From assembly GCA_022446905.1 (NCBI GenBank), contig JAKVBT010000005.1, positions 246,125 to 310,124 on the forward strand: a DNA stretch of 64,000 nt, in the 5' to 3' direction. This DNA is from Phycisphaerales bacterium (GTDB lineage Bacteria; Planctomycetota; Phycisphaerae; Phycisphaerales; SM1A02). This document shows positions 41,142-49,584 of this stretch, piece by piece. Within the stretch, counting starts at the first letter, position 1; each line of letters opens with the position of its first letter. The notes below the pieces were generated by a model. That model worked only from the letters and a program-made list of their open reading frames with translations. It had not been told where the DNA came from and did not search any database. A program made the translations under genes and the position numbers.

Positions 41142-41185
41142 TCGCCCACGACGAATGCTGACATCCTGCGATATGCTTGCCGCGC

Positions 41186-41995
41186 ATGTGTCGATGGCTT
41201 GCATATCACGGTCCTGAAGTGCGAATGAGCACGCTTCTGCACGATCCGGAGCACTCGCTGCTTGATCAATCCAAACACGCGACTCAGAGTTCATGGGTGG
41301 TCAACGGCGATGGTGTTGGAATGGGCTGGTATGCATCAGATCCCGACCCGGGGCAGTATCGCGAAACTCGTGCGGCATGGAATGATGAGAACGTCAAGAG
41401 TTTGTCGCGTCAGGTGCGTAGTGGTCTCTTTTTAGCCCATGTTCGAGCAGTGACTCGCGGCACGGTGTCACGCACCAATACGCATCCATTTCTGATGGGT
41501 GATTGGTTGTTTCAGCACAATGGGGATATCGGGGGATTTGATCGCATGCGGCGTCGTCTTGATGAACGGATTACAGACCCGTGGTATCAGTGCCGTCAGG
41601 GGCAGACGGATTCAGAAACCATGTTTGCCCTTGCGCTGTCACTTGGCCTTCAGGATGATCCACCAGGCGCGATTCGTGGCATGATCCAGACCATTCTCGA
41701 ATTGCGATTGGATCTGAACATTGCAGACCCCTTTCTGATGACCATCATGACAACAGGCGGCGATGCTTTGTGGGGGGCTCGGTTCGCAGCTGGGGGTGAT
41801 GCTCCAAGCATGTATTACGCGCGTGGGTTGGCGATTCGAAATAGTGATGGCTCTACAGCAGCACTCGCTGAAAATGCGACAGTCGTTGTTTCAGAACCAC
41901 TCGATCAGGGAGGACACGATTGGGCGGAGGTGCCAGTCGGGTCTTTGTTGCATGTGGGGGATGCTGGAGTGCAAATCGAGTCATTGGGGATCTGA
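41186..41995 (+). CDS. Class II glutamine amidotransferase (YafJ/EgtC-like)
   Basis: N-terminal nucleophile (Ntn) hydrolase of 269 residues. The ATG at 41186 is followed directly by Cys2 (MCRWLAYHGP), which becomes the nucleophile after Met removal, so this start is required; the TTG at 41177 would bury it. Family marks follow: GDGVGMGWY, LAHVRAVTRGTVSRTNTHPF, the WLFQHNGDI segment and SDSE-like TDSETMFAL. It should release ammonia from glutamine or cleave a gamma-glutamyl bond, as EgtC does, but no ergothioneine gene is nearby. It is 5 bases from the phosphatase-cytochrome gene, so the two are likely co-expressed. Confidence 0.88.
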   Translation: MCRWLAYHGPEVRMSTLLHDPEHSLLDQSKHATQSSWVVNGDGVGMGWYASDPDPGQYRETRAAWNDENVKSLSRQVRSGLFLAHVRAVTRGTVSRTNTHPFLMGDWLFQHNGDIGGFDRMRRRLDERITDPWYQCRQGQTDSETMFALALSLGLQDDPPGAIRGMIQTILELRLDLNIADPFLMTIMTTGGDALWGARFAAGGDAPSMYYARGLAIRNSDGSTAALAENATVVVSEPLDQGGHDWAEVPVGSLLHVGDAGVQIESLGI

Positions 41996-42000
41996 TCACA

Positions 42001-43026
42001 GTGCGTTCGAAGCCTCGTTGTTTGCAGCATTTTCGGCCTCAGCAATGCGGTGGAGTGTGCCGACGTGTCTTGTTGCTGCTCATGGCAGGATGCGGTGTCA
42101 TCTTTGCTGCAGCAACTCAGCGGCCGGTGGTTTGTCCATGGTCCGCTGTTGATGTGCACGTGGATACAGAGAGCCCCGTCACGCTTGAAGGTCTTTCAAA
42201 TGTAGTCATGTACCACCCGGATCTTGTATCTGGGGGTTCTCCTGGGGGGGCACTTGGTTTCAAAGCCCTGAGCGATCTCGGTGTGCGCACCGTGATCAGT
42301 GTTGATGGCGCTATTCCTGATGTTGAGGCAGCAGCGCAGGCAGGATTGCGCTATGTCCACCTGCCAGTTCACTACGGTGGCTTGAGTGCCGATCGGCATC
42401 TCCAGTTGGCGCGTTCATGCCGTGATGCGCTCCGAGTTGGCGGGGTGTATGTGCATTGCCATCATGGACAGCATCGCAGTGCTGCAGCCGCTGCGGTGGC
42501 AGTGCTTTCTCTGGGCTGGGCGCGCACCGAAGACATGCTGGCACGCATGCGTGTGTCGGGGACGTCGCGACACTATGCAGGTCTCTTTGAATCAGTCGAA
42601 TGCGCGCAACCGATTCCGAAACATCAACTTGATGCCATCAACGCTGATTTTCCAGCAGTCTCTAGGCCAGCGCATATGACAGAACTCATGGTTGAGATGA
42701 ACCATGTATTGGGTCATCTTGAATTGATTGCAGCTGCCCAATGGCAGGTTCCAGTCAAGCATCCAGACCTCGTTCCGGCTGCAGAGGCGGCTCGCCTCTT
42801 TGACCTGTATCGACGCATGCGGGATGTAGCAACGCGAAGGAGTGGAGACGAGCACTGGCGGTCTGCCGAGCAGGGTGGGGTTCAGGCTGCGGCTGCTTTG
42901 GAGCGCCTCTTGACCTCAGGCAGGGTCGAAGTTGCAACCTGTGGGGCTCGCCTTGCGGAGATTCAGGCCAGTTGTCAGTCCTGCCACAGTCGATTTCGGG
43001 ACGAACGCAGAGGCGAGTCCAGATAA
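42001..43026 (+). CDS. Lipoprotein fusing a Cys-phosphatase domain and a cytochrome c'-like domain
   Basis: A 341-residue exported protein (GTG start at 42001; a second GTG at 42055 would give a tighter signal peptide). The lipobox is LMAGC (Cys31). Next comes a dual-specificity/tyrosine phosphatase-like domain whose P-loop VHCHHGQHRS matches HCX5R(S/T), with nucleophile Cys153 and Arg159. From about residue 190 the protein is helical and ends in SCQSCHSRFRD. This CxxCH heme site (Cys325, Cys328, His329) lies close to the C-terminus and is followed by a basic/aromatic residue, as in cytochrome c' and its four-helix relatives. Thus a periplasm-facing phosphatase joined to a covalent heme domain. 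Both motifs are complete. Function is not known. Confidence 0.78.
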   Translation: MRSKPRCLQHFRPQQCGGVCRRVLLLLMAGCGVIFAAATQRPVVCPWSAVDVHVDTESPVTLEGLSNVVMYHPDLVSGGSPGGALGFKALSDLGVRTVISVDGAIPDVEAAAQAGLRYVHLPVHYGGLSADRHLQLARSCRDALRVGGVYVHCHHGQHRSAAAAAVAVLSLGWARTEDMLARMRVSGTSRHYAGLFESVECAQPIPKHQLDAINADFPAVSRPAHMTELMVEMNHVLGHLELIAAAQWQVPVKHPDLVPAAEAARLFDLYRRMRDVATRRSGDEHWRSAEQGGVQAAAALERLLTSGRVEVATCGARLAEIQASCQSCHSRFRDERRGESR

Positions 43027-43098: not shown

Positions 43099-43124
43099 CA
43101 AACAACTGTTTGAAACACGTGTTT
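43099..43124. promoter_or_regulatory. Likely TetR operator: two abutting palindromes
   Basis: CAAACA-AC-TGTTTG (43099-43112) is a perfect inverted repeat, and AAACACGTGTTT (43113-43124) is a second, perfect 12-base palindrome sharing the AAACA/TGTTT half-site. They lie between the promoter and the tetR start, so a bound dimer or pair of dimers would block the whole operon. Confidence 0.72.
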
Positions 43125-43155
43125 GGATTCGGTCAGCGTCTTACTGAGAGGCTTC

Positions 43156-43773
43156 ATGAGTACCAAAGAGGACATTCTGAATGCGGCCCTGGGTGTCTTT
43201 GCTCAGCATGGCTATGACGGGGGGACGGTGCGTGAGATTTGTGATCGCGCCCGAGCCAATGTGGCTGCAGTCAACTACCACTTTGGGGACAAGGCCTCGC
43301 TGTACGCGGAAGTGTTGCAACATGCCTACCGATCCGCGGGCAATCGTGAACCAATGCCAACACTGGGGGCGCGACCTGATGACCCCAAAGGGCAACTTCA
43401 GGCGTGGATTCACTGGTATGTCCGCAGGATTCTGCAGGCAAGTGATACAGACATCGGCCGTTTGATGGCTGCCGAGATGGCTAAGCCGACGCCAGCATTG
43501 GATGCGTTGGCCACCCGCGCAGTTCAGCCGGTCTCTGATGCGTTGAGTCAACTGGTACAGGCGGTCGCTGGTGGTACGTTGTCTGAACGCAGCTTACGTC
43601 TTCACACCGTCTCGGTCATCGGGCAGTGTTTGGTCTATCGCTTTGGTGCGGCCATGCTTGAGCGTCTCAATCCGCCGCACTTTGGGCAGGACGATGCGGC
43701 TCTGATTGCTGAGCACATATTTCATGTGACCACGATCGCAGTAGCTCAAGCGACCAAGGTAGAAGCATCATGA
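43156..43773 (+). CDS. TetR family repressor (CecR-like)
   Basis: DNA-binding regulator of 205 residues. The helix-turn-helix is in the N-terminal 50 residues: ILNAALGVFAQHGYDGGTVREIC, then NVAAVNYHFGDKASLYAEVL. The ligand domain contains RLMAAEMAKPTPALD, close to the CecR/DUF1956 group that controls efflux pumps. The longer frame from 43123 overlaps the operator; the ATG at 43156 (MSTKEDIL) is preferred. Its stop overlaps the outer-membrane-factor ATG by 4 bases, so repressor and pump form one operon, autoregulated through the palindromes at 43099-43124. The inducer is unknown. Confidence 0.9.
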   Translation: MSTKEDILNAALGVFAQHGYDGGTVREICDRARANVAAVNYHFGDKASLYAEVLQHAYRSAGNREPMPTLGARPDDPKGQLQAWIHWYVRRILQASDTDIGRLMAAEMAKPTPALDALATRAVQPVSDALSQLVQAVAGGTLSERSLRLHTVSVIGQCLVYRFGAAMLERLNPPHFGQDDAALIAEHIFHVTTIAVAQATKVEAS

Positions 43774-45203
43774 GGCAGTTGGCATGGATATTGCCATTGC
43801 TGGCTATCGGGTGCAATCCGGTACAGATTCCCAAGAGAACCATGCCGGCGATCACGCCGCCTGAAAGTTATGCATCCACAGGTGGCGTACAAAGGCCGCC
43901 GACTGAATGGTGGACCGCTTTCGGTGACGAGATGTTGGATCGCCATGTTGATCTGGCATTGGAATCCAATTTGGATCTTCGTCAGGCCTGGTCTAGGTTG
44001 GCACAAGCAGCAGCGACGGCGCGCATCGCCGGGGCGCCGATACTGCCGGAGATCAATCTGACAAGTACTGCAGCGAGGTCACGTGGTGATGCTGGCGGAA
44101 TCACCTACACAAGCAGTTGGGTGGTTGGATTTGGGCTGGGATGGGAGGTGGATTTATGGCGTCGCATTGCCAATCGTGCGGAAGCCGCAGTTCTCGCTGC
44201 GGCTGCAAGCCGTCAGGATGTAGAACATACGGCGTTGATGCTCAGCGGTACGGTGACGGATACTTGGTTCACCATCCGTGAGCAGGCAGAGTTGATTGAG
44301 GTCATCGAGGCGCAAATCGAACTCAGTGACAAACTTCTGCAGATTGTTGAGTACCGCTATACAAATGGTCTCGCCAATGCATTGCAGGTGTATCAACAGC
44401 GTCAGCAGTTAGAGGGTGTTGAAGCTCAAATGCCAGGCGTGCGTTCGGCATTTGAAACCAGTCTGAATGCCTTGGCTGTGCTTCAGGGGGCGCCACCCGA
44501 GGACAGCGCTCAATTTCTCGTGTCCGCCTCCTTGCCGGTACTGCCGCCACTGCCGTCCATTGGGTCACCAGCAGACCTCGTAGAGGCTCGGCCTGATCTG
44601 CGCGCGGCACGTGATCGGTTGGCTGGGGCTGATCGAGAAGTGGCAGCTGCTGTCGCCGACATGTTGCCCACTATTTCACTCTCCATCGGCTACGACTTCA
44701 ACTCCAACTCATTTGCAGACCCATTTACCAGTGGAGTGAGCAGCATTGGGGGGTCTTTGTTGCAGCCGCTGTTTGACAATGACCGTCGTGGCGCTGAAGT
44801 GGCGCGTCGTCGTGCCATCGTGCAGGAACGACTTGATGCTTTTTCGCAGGCCTTTCTGACAGCGCTTCGTGAGGTCGAAGATGCACTGGTTCGGGAACGC
44901 AATCAGATCGATCTACTTGAGGAAATTGCCCAGCAACTAGTGCTGTCAGAACGTCAGTTGGAGGCTGCCCGTACAAGTTATGGAGATGGGGTCGCTGAGT
45001 ATCTCGACGTCATCAGCGCAGTGCAGACCCAGCAGTCGTTGCAGCGACAACAGGTCAGTGCCCACAAGCAGTTGCTCGTCTATCGCGCATCGCTTTATCG
45101 ATCGCTGGGTGGTTCGTGGATGTCCGATCTCACTGCACCGCGACAAGTAGAGGCTGCTAGTGGTGACAAACGGATAGATAGTTCATTGGAGAAAAACTCA
45201 TGA
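43770..45203 (+). CDS. RND efflux outer membrane factor (TolC/OprM, NodT type)
   Basis: Outer-membrane lipoprotein channel of the tripartite pump. The signal ends in lipobox LAIGC (Cys15). The mature protein has two OEP repeats with long helices (LALESNLDLRQAWSRLAQA, and RPDLRAARDRLAGADREVAAA in the second) and beta strands that cross the outer membrane. A VDLWRRI segment and a late YGDGVAEYLDVISA segment are typical of NodT/OprM proteins. At 477 residues it is complete. It sits between tetR and the adaptor gene with ATGA overlaps on both sides. Confidence 0.93.
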   Translation: MRQLAWILPLLAIGCNPVQIPKRTMPAITPPESYASTGGVQRPPTEWWTAFGDEMLDRHVDLALESNLDLRQAWSRLAQAAATARIAGAPILPEINLTSTAARSRGDAGGITYTSSWVVGFGLGWEVDLWRRIANRAEAAVLAAAASRQDVEHTALMLSGTVTDTWFTIREQAELIEVIEAQIELSDKLLQIVEYRYTNGLANALQVYQQRQQLEGVEAQMPGVRSAFETSLNALAVLQGAPPEDSAQFLVSASLPVLPPLPSIGSPADLVEARPDLRAARDRLAGADREVAAAVADMLPTISLSIGYDFNSNSFADPFTSGVSSIGGSLLQPLFDNDRRGAEVARRRAIVQERLDAFSQAFLTALREVEDALVRERNQIDLLEEIAQQLVLSERQLEAARTSYGDGVAEYLDVISAVQTQQSLQRQQVSAHKQLLVYRASLYRSLGGSWMSDLTAPRQVEAASGDKRIDSSLEKNS

Positions 45204-46438
45204 CTCCTGTGTTGCGCACACTCCGTCCTGTGGCGGATTTGATTCGGCTCATCATTCCACCGCTGATTCTGGCAGTTGGATTGTGGACCGGCTGGATGCT
45301 CTTCAAGAGCAAGCCGGTGCCGAAGGTAGAGAAGTTGGAGGAAGTTGCGACTGTGGTACAGACGGTGGTGCCGCCGATGATGGACACGTCGCTTGATGTC
45401 ACGGCGTGGGGGACTGTGAAGCCGTCGCAGGAACTCTCATTGCGGCCAGAGGTCGCGGGGCGACTGGACGAGGTATCGGATCGATTCGTTCCTGGTGGTG
45501 TCTTTGGTCAGGGAGATGTGCTGGCTCGTATTGATCAGCGTGACTACCACTATGCCCTCCAGCAGGCACTCGCTGGTCTGGAAACTGCGCGTTTTAATCT
45601 CGAAGTCGAGGAAGGGCGGGGACGTGTTGCGCAGCGCGACTGGGAACTTCTTGGAGAGGTTATGGATGCGGATGCCCAAGGCAGTCGCATGGCTTTGCGG
45701 GCGCCACATCTTGCAGAGAAGAAGGCGGCGTTGGCATCAGCAGAGAGCCGTGTTGAGCAGGCACAACTAGCGCTCGAGCGGACCATCATCAAAGCACCGT
45801 TCAATGCCATCGTTCAGATGGAGAGTGCCGAGGTTGGCCAGATTGTTTCTAGTGCGACCACACTTGGAACACTGGTCGGTACCGACGCCTATTGGGTAGA
45901 GATTGGTGTTCCACTTGCAGATGTTGCGTTACTCAACATTATTGAGGGAGATGATCGCCCGGCAAAGATCTCGTTATCCACCGGCGGTGGTGATGATGTT
46001 ATGTATGCCGGCCATATTGCAGGCCTGACTGGCAGTGTGGATGCAGTTGGACGGCTTGTCCGGGTTCTTATTGCTGTGCCAAATCCATTGGAGCAGTCCT
46101 CAGAACGCACACTGCCACTGCTGCTCGGATCCTATGTCGCTGTGACGCTTGAAGGGCCAGCAGTCCATGGCGTGCGTGCCTTGCCCCGCGCGGTGATCCG
46201 CGAAGGAGATGTGGTTTGGATTGCCGGTCGTGACAACCGTCTTGCCATTCGTCCCGTCGAGATTCTTGGCGGTGATGCTCGTTCCGTGCTTGGGCGGGTG
46301 GAGTTGGCTGATGACGAAGCAATTATCAACAGTCCACTTCCAGCAGCAGCGCCTGGGATGTTGCTACAGCGAGCACTCTCAAATATGCCTATGGGGAACA
46401 TCTCGTCAGTCGATGGTGTATCTGAGGTAGCGCGGTGA
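45200..46438 (+). CDS. RND efflux periplasmic adaptor (membrane fusion protein)
   Basis: Adaptor that links the inner-membrane pump to the outer-membrane channel. One N-terminal helix (about residues 17-35, ILAVGLWTGWMLF) anchors it. A lipoyl half-motif LRPEVAGRLDEVSDRFVPGG, a coiled-coil hairpin and the second lipoyl half with RTIIKAPFNAIVQ follow, then beta-barrel and membrane-proximal domains. The length of 412 residues fits. Start ATG and stop each overlap the neighbours by 4 bases. Confidence 0.93.
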   Translation: MTPVLRTLRPVADLIRLIIPPLILAVGLWTGWMLFKSKPVPKVEKLEEVATVVQTVVPPMMDTSLDVTAWGTVKPSQELSLRPEVAGRLDEVSDRFVPGGVFGQGDVLARIDQRDYHYALQQALAGLETARFNLEVEEGRGRVAQRDWELLGEVMDADAQGSRMALRAPHLAEKKAALASAESRVEQAQLALERTIIKAPFNAIVQMESAEVGQIVSSATTLGTLVGTDAYWVEIGVPLADVALLNIIEGDDRPAKISLSTGGGDDVMYAGHIAGLTGSVDAVGRLVRVLIAVPNPLEQSSERTLPLLLGSYVAVTLEGPAVHGVRALPRAVIREGDVVWIAGRDNRLAIRPVEILGGDARSVLGRVELADDEAIINSPLPAAAPGMLLQRALSNMPMGNISSVDGVSEVAR

Positions 46439-49400
46439 CCGAACCACGTTTACTGCCCAGTCAGAGATCAGGTGCGATCGGTTGGATGGCCCGCAATCCT
46501 GTGGCTGCCAATTTGCTCATGATCTTTCTGATCGCCGGAGGTCTCATCCTCGGCAGTCGGGTTAAGCAGGAAGTCTTCCCAGAATTCACCATCGACATGG
46601 TCGTGGTCACGGTGCCCTATCCCGGGGCAAGCCCTGAGGAAGTTGAGCAGGGCATTGTGCTGGCCATTGAAGATGCTGTGAGTGGGCTTGATGGTGTCAA
46701 GCGCGTGAGGAGTTCATCTGCGGAGGGGTATGGCTCTGTGCAGGTCGAGTTGTTGCTTGGCGCTGATCTGGGTCGTACTCAGCAGGATGTGCAGACAGCG
46801 GTGGATGCCATCGTGTCCTTTCCAGAAGAAGCAGAGCGTCCGCGTGTGCAACTCATCTCAACGCGAAATCGGGTGCTTTCATTGGCGTTGTCGGGCGACT
46901 TTGATGAGCGGGTGCTCCGCGATCGGGCGGAGCAGATCAGAACGGCACTCATTGCAGAACCAGGAATCACGCAGGTCGATCTCAAATTTGTTCGGCCAAT
47001 GGAAATTGCCGTCGAGATTCCTGATGCGCAACTTCGTTCTTATGGTCTGACCCTTGAAGCGATCGCCCGCGCCATCCGGCAAGCAGCTACTGAACTGCCA
47101 GCGGGATCGATTCGAGCTGAAGGCGGAGAAGTTCTACTTCGCACGACAGAGCGTCGCGATTTTGCCAGCGAGTTTGCTTCACTTCCGCTGATCACTCGTG
47201 CTGATGGGACCACAGTGATGCTTGGTGATGTCGCTGAAGTGCGTGAGCAATTCAGTGATGTCGATCTTGGCGCTTGGGTTGATGGAAAACCTGCGGCGCT
47301 GATCGAGGTTTTCCGAGTTGGTAGCGAAACGCCCATCTCTGTGTCCGAGGCCACCAGAGAATGGCTTGGTCAGTACACCAGTCAATTGCCGCCAAACATG
47401 AACATTGGTATCTGGAATGATGACTCGGAGATCTACCGGGAACGCATTGACCTTTTGCTGCGCAATGCCTTTGTCGGCCTTGCTCTGGTACTGCTTCTGC
47501 TAGGCCTTTTCCTAGAGCCGCGGCTGGCATTCTGGGTGATGCTTGGTATTCCCATCTCTATTCTGGGCTCGTTTGTGATTCTGCCGCTCACCGGGGCCTC
47601 GATCAACATGATTTCGTTGTTCGCCTTTCTGGTGACACTTGGCATCATTGTCGATGACGCCGTGGTGGTTGGGGAGAATATTTACGAGAAGCGACAAGAA
47701 GGCCTTGGGGCACTTGATGCAGCGATCTTGGGCGCCAAGGAGATCGCTGGCCCGGTGTTCTTCGCAGTCACAACCAACATGGTGGCTTTTCTGCCAATGT
47801 TCTTTGTGCCAGGCGGCGAAGGTAAGTTGTTCATGCAGATTCCCGCGGTCACAATCGCGGTGTTCTTGGTATCGCTGATCGAATCGCTCTTTGTACTGCC
47901 AGCGCACCTCTCGCATCAGGGTGCAGACACCATGTTCTGGCGGATTGTGTCCGCGCCATCTCGTATATTCGGACGCGGTCTGCAATGGACTATTCATCGT
48001 TTGTACAAACCCACGGTCTACGCAGCTGCCAGGCATCGATTGCTGACAATTGCCATCGGCATTGCCATGCTGGCGATTTCGGGTGGGTATATCGCCGGCG
48101 GGCATATTCCTTTCACGTTTCTACCAGACATCGATGCAGGTGTAGTGAGCGCTCGAGTTCGGCTGCCCATTGGTGTCCCGCTGGAGAATGCTGAACGTGT
48201 CCGTGCCGCGCTCACCGACGGGGCCGATGAGGTTATTGCCGGTCTTGGCGATGGTTCTTATGTCGATGGGCATATATCGACCATTGGAGCAGCGCTGAGC
48301 GTTTTCGGCCCACAGGGCGGTGGCGGCGGAAGTGGTGGCACTTCGGTTGTTTCGGCCATGCTAGAAGTCAAGCCGGGCAGTGAGATCAGCGGGACAGAGT
48401 TTGCTCGTCGTTGGCGTGAGGCGGTTGGGGATCTGCCTGGGGTGGAATCCTTTGTCCTTGACGCGCGCATTGGGCCAGGTGATTCCGCTATCGAAGTGCA
48501 ACTTTCCCACGCTGATCGTTTGCAGTTGGATCAGGCTGCGCAGGCAACTGCGGGCCTACTGTCTACGTACGAAGCAGCTCGCAATATTGACAGTGGGGTT
48601 GCATCCGGAAAGGAACAACTTGATTTCACTTTGACTCCAGAGGCGCAGGCATATGGTCTTACGGCCGCGGGTGTGGCTCGACAGGTTCGCCACGCTTTCT
48701 ATGGTGCTGAAGCACTTCGTCAACAGCGGGGGCGTAATGAAGTCCGAGTCATGGTTCGTCTGCCCGAGGATGAGCGACGCACGCGCAACACCATTGAAGA
48801 ATTAATCCTGCGGACCCCAACCGGCGGGGAAATTCCATTTACTGAAGCAGTCGATATCAAAACTGGAAGGGCCTATACGACCATCACGCGACGTGAAGGA
48901 AAACGTGTCGTCACTGTGACCGGTGATGTTGAGGAAGCAGTTGGCAATGCCAATGAGATTGTGAGTCAATTGGAAGAGCGGATTGTCGCCGAGGTCGCCC
49001 CGCAGTACCCCGGTCTGACTTGGTCCTTCGAGGGCGAGCAACGTGACCAGGCCGATACGTTTTCACAACTCGGAGTTGGGTATCTCCTTGCCATGCTGGG
49101 GATTTTTGCATTACTGGCCATCCCCTTCAAGAGCTACGCTCAGCCCTTGGTAGTCATGGCAGCAATCCCATTTGGTGTCATTGGTGCAGTGATCGGACAC
49201 ATTTTGCTTGGCTACGGACTGAGCATCATCAGCATGTTTGGGATCATTGCACTCAGTGGAGTTGTAGTAAACGACTCCTTGGTGCTTCTGGTGACGGCCA
49301 ACATGCATCGGGATGCCGATCCTGACAAGCCGGTCATCGATGCTGTGTGCCGGGCAGGGATGCGTCGGTTCAGGCCAATTCTCCTGACTAGTGTGACCAC

Positions 49401-49584
49401 CTTCTTCGGTTTAGCCCCGATGATTTTTGAAACCAGTATGCAGGCCCGCTTTTTGATTCCAATGGCGATTTCCATCGGGTTTGGAGTGCTCTTTGCGACC
49501 TTCATCATTCTGCTGCTCGTGCCGGCCCTTTATCTGCTGGTGGAAGACTGTCGCCGATGCATGCGGTATTTATTCGAACACTGA
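46435..49584 (+). CDS. RND efflux pump permease (AcrB/HAE family)
   Basis: Proton-driven inner-membrane pump of 1049 residues with 12 transmembrane helices and two large periplasmic loops. The first helix is preceded by RNPVAANLLMIFLIAGG. The proton-relay Asp pair in helix 4 is present in GIIVDDAVVVGENIYEKR. The second half has SMFGIIALSGVVVNDSLVLL and a closing PMAISIGFGVLFATFIILLLVPALYL. A Gly-rich loop (GPQGGGGGSGGTS) lies in the second periplasmic domain. The GTG start overlaps the adaptor stop. Drug or lipid-like substrates are likely; the heavy-metal subtype is not supported. Confidence 0.95.
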   Translation: MTEPRLLPSQRSGAIGWMARNPVAANLLMIFLIAGGLILGSRVKQEVFPEFTIDMVVVTVPYPGASPEEVEQGIVLAIEDAVSGLDGVKRVRSSSAEGYGSVQVELLLGADLGRTQQDVQTAVDAIVSFPEEAERPRVQLISTRNRVLSLALSGDFDERVLRDRAEQIRTALIAEPGITQVDLKFVRPMEIAVEIPDAQLRSYGLTLEAIARAIRQAATELPAGSIRAEGGEVLLRTTERRDFASEFASLPLITRADGTTVMLGDVAEVREQFSDVDLGAWVDGKPAALIEVFRVGSETPISVSEATREWLGQYTSQLPPNMNIGIWNDDSEIYRERIDLLLRNAFVGLALVLLLLGLFLEPRLAFWVMLGIPISILGSFVILPLTGASINMISLFAFLVTLGIIVDDAVVVGENIYEKRQEGLGALDAAILGAKEIAGPVFFAVTTNMVAFLPMFFVPGGEGKLFMQIPAVTIAVFLVSLIESLFVLPAHLSHQGADTMFWRIVSAPSRIFGRGLQWTIHRLYKPTVYAAARHRLLTIAIGIAMLAISGGYIAGGHIPFTFLPDIDAGVVSARVRLPIGVPLENAERVRAALTDGADEVIAGLGDGSYVDGHISTIGAALSVFGPQGGGGGSGGTSVVSAMLEVKPGSEISGTEFARRWREAVGDLPGVESFVLDARIGPGDSAIEVQLSHADRLQLDQAAQATAGLLSTYEAARNIDSGVASGKEQLDFTLTPEAQAYGLTAAGVARQVRHAFYGAEALRQQRGRNEVRVMVRLPEDERRTRNTIEELILRTPTGGEIPFTEAVDIKTGRAYTTITRREGKRVVTVTGDVEEAVGNANEIVSQLEERIVAEVAPQYPGLTWSFEGEQRDQADTFSQLGVGYLLAMLGIFALLAIPFKSYAQPLVVMAAIPFGVIGAVIGHILLGYGLSIISMFGIIALSGVVVNDSLVLLVTANMHRDADPDKPVIDAVCRAGMRRFRPILLTSVTTFFGLAPMIFETSMQARFLIPMAISIGFGVLFATFIILLLVPALYLLVEDCRRCMRYLFEH

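Follow-up and report, generated by a model that had tools for sequence, protein, structure and literature searches.

Cys-based phosphatases are switched off by oxidation, and to our knowledge no such enzyme carries a built-in redox cofactor. TpbA (PA3885), a periplasmic dual-specificity phosphatase (DSP) of Pseudomonas aeruginosa, has the loop HCKHGNNR; Asp105 has been proposed as its general acid, and mutating this residue lowered efficiency by only 53% (PMC4409338). Cytochrome b562, a four-helix bundle, is low-spin and six-coordinate, with His102 and Met7 as heme ligands (PMC7864044). Both kinds of domain are known singly; their joining in one protein is apparently undescribed, and no protein combining them was found in the open-access literature, in keeping with an earlier note on the DNA analysed here, which knew of no described system with this pairing. 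Two plasmid-borne members of the family are annotated 'hypothetical protein' and 'dual specificity protein phosphatase', with the heme domain unmentioned.

The fused protein considered here is encoded in a Phycisphaerales bacterium (contig JAKVBT010000005.1), within the stretch of 64,000 nucleotides that we analysed and refer to as the window. Its gene (42001–43026 of the window, + strand, as are its parts and the upstream gene given below) is an open frame with a GTG start that encodes 341 amino acids, comprising a predicted lipoprotein signal, a DSP-fold domain with an HCX5R loop and a class II heme-c domain. The predicted signal peptide (42001–42093) ends in the lipobox-like sequence LMAGC, which is non-standard in having Met at −3, with Cys31 as the predicted lipidation site; a crude pattern finds lipobox-like sites in 52 of the 80 named homologues. 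The protein is predicted to be extracytoplasmic, as the earlier note had proposed. Both motifs which that note had placed in one frame were confirmed, namely the HCX5R P-loop VHCHHGQHRS (residues 151–160, 42451–42480), with the nucleophile Cys153 and Arg159, and the C-terminal heme-c attachment site CQSCH (residues 325–329, 42973–42987), which contains the proximal ligand His329 and is directly followed by SRFRD. Their spacing, given earlier as 165 residues, is corrected to 172 residues, counted from Cys153 to the first Cys of CxxCH.

Occurrence, conservation and genomic context

A whole-protein similarity search matched the fusion protein in 45 of 101 related genomes, and the fusion gene occurs in 3 of the 9 genomes of the source genus. 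Thirty homologues from related genomes, picked by whole-protein similarity and independently of the motif, all retain the P-loop Cys and Arg (30/30), and CxxCH is found in 29/29, the one sequence that lacks it (L013) being cut at a contig end. Scanning GTDB genome contigs with a search seeded on the loop motif yielded at least 482 relatives; the best 80 of these were retained, bear mostly planctomycete names and have a C-terminal CxxCH in 79 cases, the exception (L072) being a truncated sequence. When 392 Planctomycetota genomes were searched with a profile, 211 gave matches, of which, among the matches listed, about 130 run to the profile end; the fusion that the earlier note had suggested seeking in other planctomycetes is present there at full length. 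From this motif-independent search, 40 further regions were chosen.

Across 140 full-length homologues, a set that includes near-identical copies (the same genome under two loci) and has a somewhat lower independent number, the residues C153, G156, R159, M230, C325, C328 and H329 are each found in 140/140, as are P122 and Y125. Conservation of both sites at this level rules out a chance motif, and the loss of CxxCH or of the P-loop Cys among homologues, to which the earlier note had pointed as evidence that would count against its reading, was not seen. The pairing of a phosphatase-type Cys site with a heme-c domain is real and conserved in many planctomycetes.

Two variations within the family were also observed. 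The fused homologue L158 has a degenerate loop (TCETGRDR) with Glu102 and Asp158, and keeps Cys, Arg, Met230 and CxxCH intact, possibly reflecting a drift of loop chemistry. At position 198, Cys is common (69/140) and might act as a second redox Cys in some members; the window protein has Ser at this position (42592–42594).

The fusion gene starts 5 bases past the stop of an upstream class II amidotransferase gene (41177–41995), whose EgtC-like product scores 173 bits against TIGR03442, below the cut-off of 218.65. The two genes are probably co-transcribed here, as the short gap had suggested, but the proposed partnership did not extend beyond this locus: the amidotransferase lies beside 0 of the 80 fetched homologues, and two genomes of the same genus (G003 and G005) carry it on another contig than the fusion gene. 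The EgtC-like amidotransferase is a genus-level gene, and elsewhere the source genome carries another copy with about 50% identity. Downstream, positions 43123–49584 encode a CecR/TetR-type regulator (Pfam), followed by frames that by eye resemble an outer-membrane factor, a membrane-fusion protein and an RND pump, and look like an ordinary efflux operon. The RND efflux genes were also rejected as partners, similar genes lying near only few homologues. When neighbouring frames were clustered, the fusion gene and its own antisense frames aside, each family was found next to a handful of homologues at most.

The Cys-loop domain and the ancestry of the fusion

AlphaFold2 prediction of the whole mature protein from a 72-row family alignment gave a mean pLDDT of 92.3 and a pTM of 0.81; in the model, four helices follow a DSP-like domain. 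The first domain (about residues 55–214, 42163–42642) aligns in VIA with DUSP23 (2img; Z 17.0, rmsd 2.4, 142 aligned residues) and with TpbA (4r0s; Z 16.0, rmsd 3.0, 155 aligned residues). Foldseek likewise matched it to TpbA (E = 1.4e-6), which is the best sequence relative of known structure by PDB profile match (6e-9). Structures of the DUF442 and Siw14/PFA-DSP families also match this domain, the DUF442/BLH_phosphatase entry 3gxg weakly so by profile (1.5e-5), and Pfam family PF04273 (BLH_phosphatase/DUF442) scores 24.2 bits, below its curated cut-off of 26.1.

The anion-binding loop is intact and has the HCX5R pattern that marks Cys-based phosphatases, including the invariant C153, G156 and R159. 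Position 126, which aligns with TpbA Asp105, is occupied by D in 64, N in 50, S in 13 and H in 5 of the 140 homologues and by Gly in the window protein; acidic residues near it could substitute as the general acid. The fused clade has Asp at position 102 (42304–42306) in 139/140 members and Glu in one, a clade-specific His158 in 137/140, and Ser, Gly or Ala at position 160.

Planctomycetota also encode heme-less, single-domain, lipoprotein-like DSP paralogues (L112–L121), which have HC-x-HG-x-DRTG loops and Arg102. In all ten, the three positions are occupied by Arg102, Asp158 and Thr160. Relative to these paralogues, the phosphatase-fold site of the fused proteins is retooled, and phosphatase activity is putative, because the general-acid position varies and the loop differs from that of the heme-less proteins.

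In a FastTree phylogeny of the DSP domain, all fused proteins form one clade and the truly heme-less paralogues fall outside it with moderate support (0.78); two seemingly unfused members inside the clade (L124 and L125) are truncated at contig ends. The tree points to a single-fusion ancestry of the fused proteins. Three single-domain proteins (L111, L122 and L123) branch just outside this clade, and because they share the acidic residue at 102 and His158 without a heme domain, the loop change would have occurred before or around the fusion.

In one genus, the family shows a redox association: the proteins begin with a glutathione peroxidase domain (GSHPx, 8e-41; copies 65–100% identical). 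This triple fusion of glutathione peroxidase, DSP-fold Cys-loop and heme-c domains in one frame was observed at L039 (5278–6813), L044, L058, L006, L007, L009 and L010. A further homologue, L002 (639–2177, − strand), has an extra N-terminal region without a family assignment, which is found in no other fetched locus.

The heme domain and its probable axial ligands

The reading put forward in the earlier note depended on the C-terminal half folding as a four-helix bundle, and the AlphaFold2 model does give such a bundle (residues 220–341, 42658–43023), with a pLDDT of 88.6 for the heme domain modelled alone. Its closest folds by VIA are Kuenenia NaxL (6r6o, Z 12.9), cytochrome c′ (8h28, Z 12.6) and cytochrome cb562 (3nmi, Z 12.1), values that are common for helical bundles from their arrangement alone, and Foldseek E values for this domain were never below 0.001. 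Profile searches matched the C-terminal half to b562 and, as the best hit, to cytochrome c′ (5b3i, 6.5e-6); taken together with CxxCH, these cytochrome c′/b562 matches provide the independent, sequence-level indication of a heme domain. A single-sequence PDB search with the heme domain gave no significant match, and the window protein scores 18.5 bits against Pfam Cytochrom_C_2, below the cut-off of 26.5, with the homologues L031, L059 and L002 scoring above it. A search with this Pfam family across the source genome and the controls gave no hit in any of them and carries no information. Among the proteins of the source genome is one for cytochrome c assembly (PF01578, 4.6e-28); ResB was looked for in this genome and was not found.

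With registers taken from the first and last aligned residues only, the structural alignment to cb562 (model 5–114 on 1–106) places Met230 (model 11; 42688–42690), the candidate sixth, distal heme ligand, on Met7 and His329 (model 110) on His102, the two heme Cys corresponding to positions 98 and 101; the alignment to NaxL (model 4–118 on 25–132) places Met230 on Cys32, which is altered in 6r6n/6r6o, and that to S. frigidimarina cytochrome c′ (model 4–116 on 9–128) places it on residue 16. The sequence-profile alignment instead puts b562 Met7 on residue 233, one helical turn later. Because Met230 is invariant at the distal-ligand position, a six-coordinate, electron-transferring His329/Met230 heme of the b562/c556 type is, according to the model, likelier than the open, gas-binding heme of a cytochrome c′. 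The cytochrome c′ of R. molischianum has Met16 and its heme is still five-coordinate; a Met at the distal position is not proof of ligation, and we consider His/Met ligation of the fusion-protein heme likely.

Possible functions and comparison with known systems

Our preferred reading, held tentatively and at a little short of even confidence, is that of an extracytoplasmic lipoprotein whose two parts, a retooled DSP-fold Cys-loop enzyme and a b562/c556-type monoheme class II cytochrome c, are permanently tethered and redox-linked. The heme would be attached in the periplasm, would have His329 and Met230 as axial ligands, and would, being six-coordinate, swap electrons with the periplasmic electron-carrier pool and bind no gas. 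The subsequent steps are the least certain: the heme may set or sense how oxidised the Cys-loop site is, it may protect or re-reduce the catalytic Cys153, and phosphate-ester hydrolysis might thereby track redox conditions in the periplasm and the respiratory chain. The two-domain anatomy is well supported; coupling between heme and loop is something we infer because both sites are strictly co-retained. The fused protein is probably redox-linked and not gas-sensing. As a broader proposal, plausible but clearly tentative, the family could be an enzyme class found across the planctomycete phylum, its Cys-loop phosphatase fold rebuilt around a covalent heme, with Asp102/His158 replacing Arg/Asp. 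Its members would be either phosphatases gated by respiration or catalysts of a new, heme-linked oxidoreductase chemistry in that fold.

The same residues can be read as those of an oxidoreductase in a phosphatase fold, with a small oxyanion or a sulfur compound as the substrate bound in the loop, chemistry performed by Asp102, His158 and Cys153, and the heme as electron acceptor or donor. The variable general acid at 126, the loss of the paralogue Thr160 and the Asp-His pair in place of Arg-Asp are all consistent with such an enzyme, as is the weak similarity to the DUF442/Blh families, which have sulfur transferases among them; an acceptor cytochrome tethered to an oxidoreductase is, moreover, a common design. 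We nevertheless regard this alternative as rather unlikely, since the loop keeps the CX5R spacing of phosphatases with Cys, Gly and Arg invariant, the enzyme would have no known substrate, and no conserved neighbour indicates a pathway. The phosphatase and an electron-carrier cytochrome might also be merely co-localised in one polypeptide and functionally uncoupled, an arrangement with which the completeness of each domain on its own and the existence of heme-less single-domain paralogues would agree. Uncoupled modules, however, would not need both sites to be kept, and neither has been lost in any of the 140 full-length members; the loop is, in addition, unlike that of the heme-less paralogues, and simple tethering appears improbable.

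The gas control envisaged in the earlier note, in which the phosphatase is switched by a five-coordinate cytochrome c′ heme that binds NO, CO or O2, draws on the C-terminal half matching cytochrome c′ entries best by sequence (5b3i at 6.5e-6) and on the presence of cytochrome c′ and of NaxL, a gas-binding relative, among the closest folds; NO binding is also not strictly barred by Met ligation. The Met found in 140/140 members at the distal position, in register with the axial Met of b562, speaks against this assignment, and we consider gas control improbable. A single conserved extracytoplasmic chain with both sites would make heme-to-Cys redox control directly testable, and would hint at a function for a family present in about a third of the sampled Planctomycetota genomes.

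Among described systems, cytochrome b562 and the class II cytochromes c556 share with the fusion heme domain a four-helix bundle, a C-terminal heme site and a helix-1 Met in the axial position, whereas the domain described here is part of a larger lipoprotein, and its helices 1 and 2 are joined by a long, conserved W-x-x-P-x-x-HPDL loop. The cytochromes c′ of Shewanella and Alcaligenes have the bundle and the C-terminal CxxCH in common with it and provide the best sequence matches for the last helices; the fused family differs in its invariant distal Met and is predicted to be six-coordinate. NaxL, the closest fold, likewise comes from a planctomycete (Kuenenia NaxL/NaxS, Kusta0087/0088), but has Cys32 where the fused family has Met230, and NaxL and NaxS are separate small cytochromes without a Cys-loop domain. 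On the side of the first domain, DUF442/BLH_phosphatase 3gxg has a related fold with a weak sequence match and is without a heme domain. The heme-less paralogues L112–L121 come from the same phylum, have similar export signals and belong by profile match to the same fold family, but, unlike the fused clade, carry Arg102/Asp158/Thr160 and lack the cytochrome domain. TpbA shares with the fusion its fold, its extracytoplasmic site and the HC-x-HG-xx-R loop; it is without a heme domain, the position equivalent to its Asp105 is variable in the fused family (Gly126 in the window protein), and it is the fused clade that bears Asp102 and His158.
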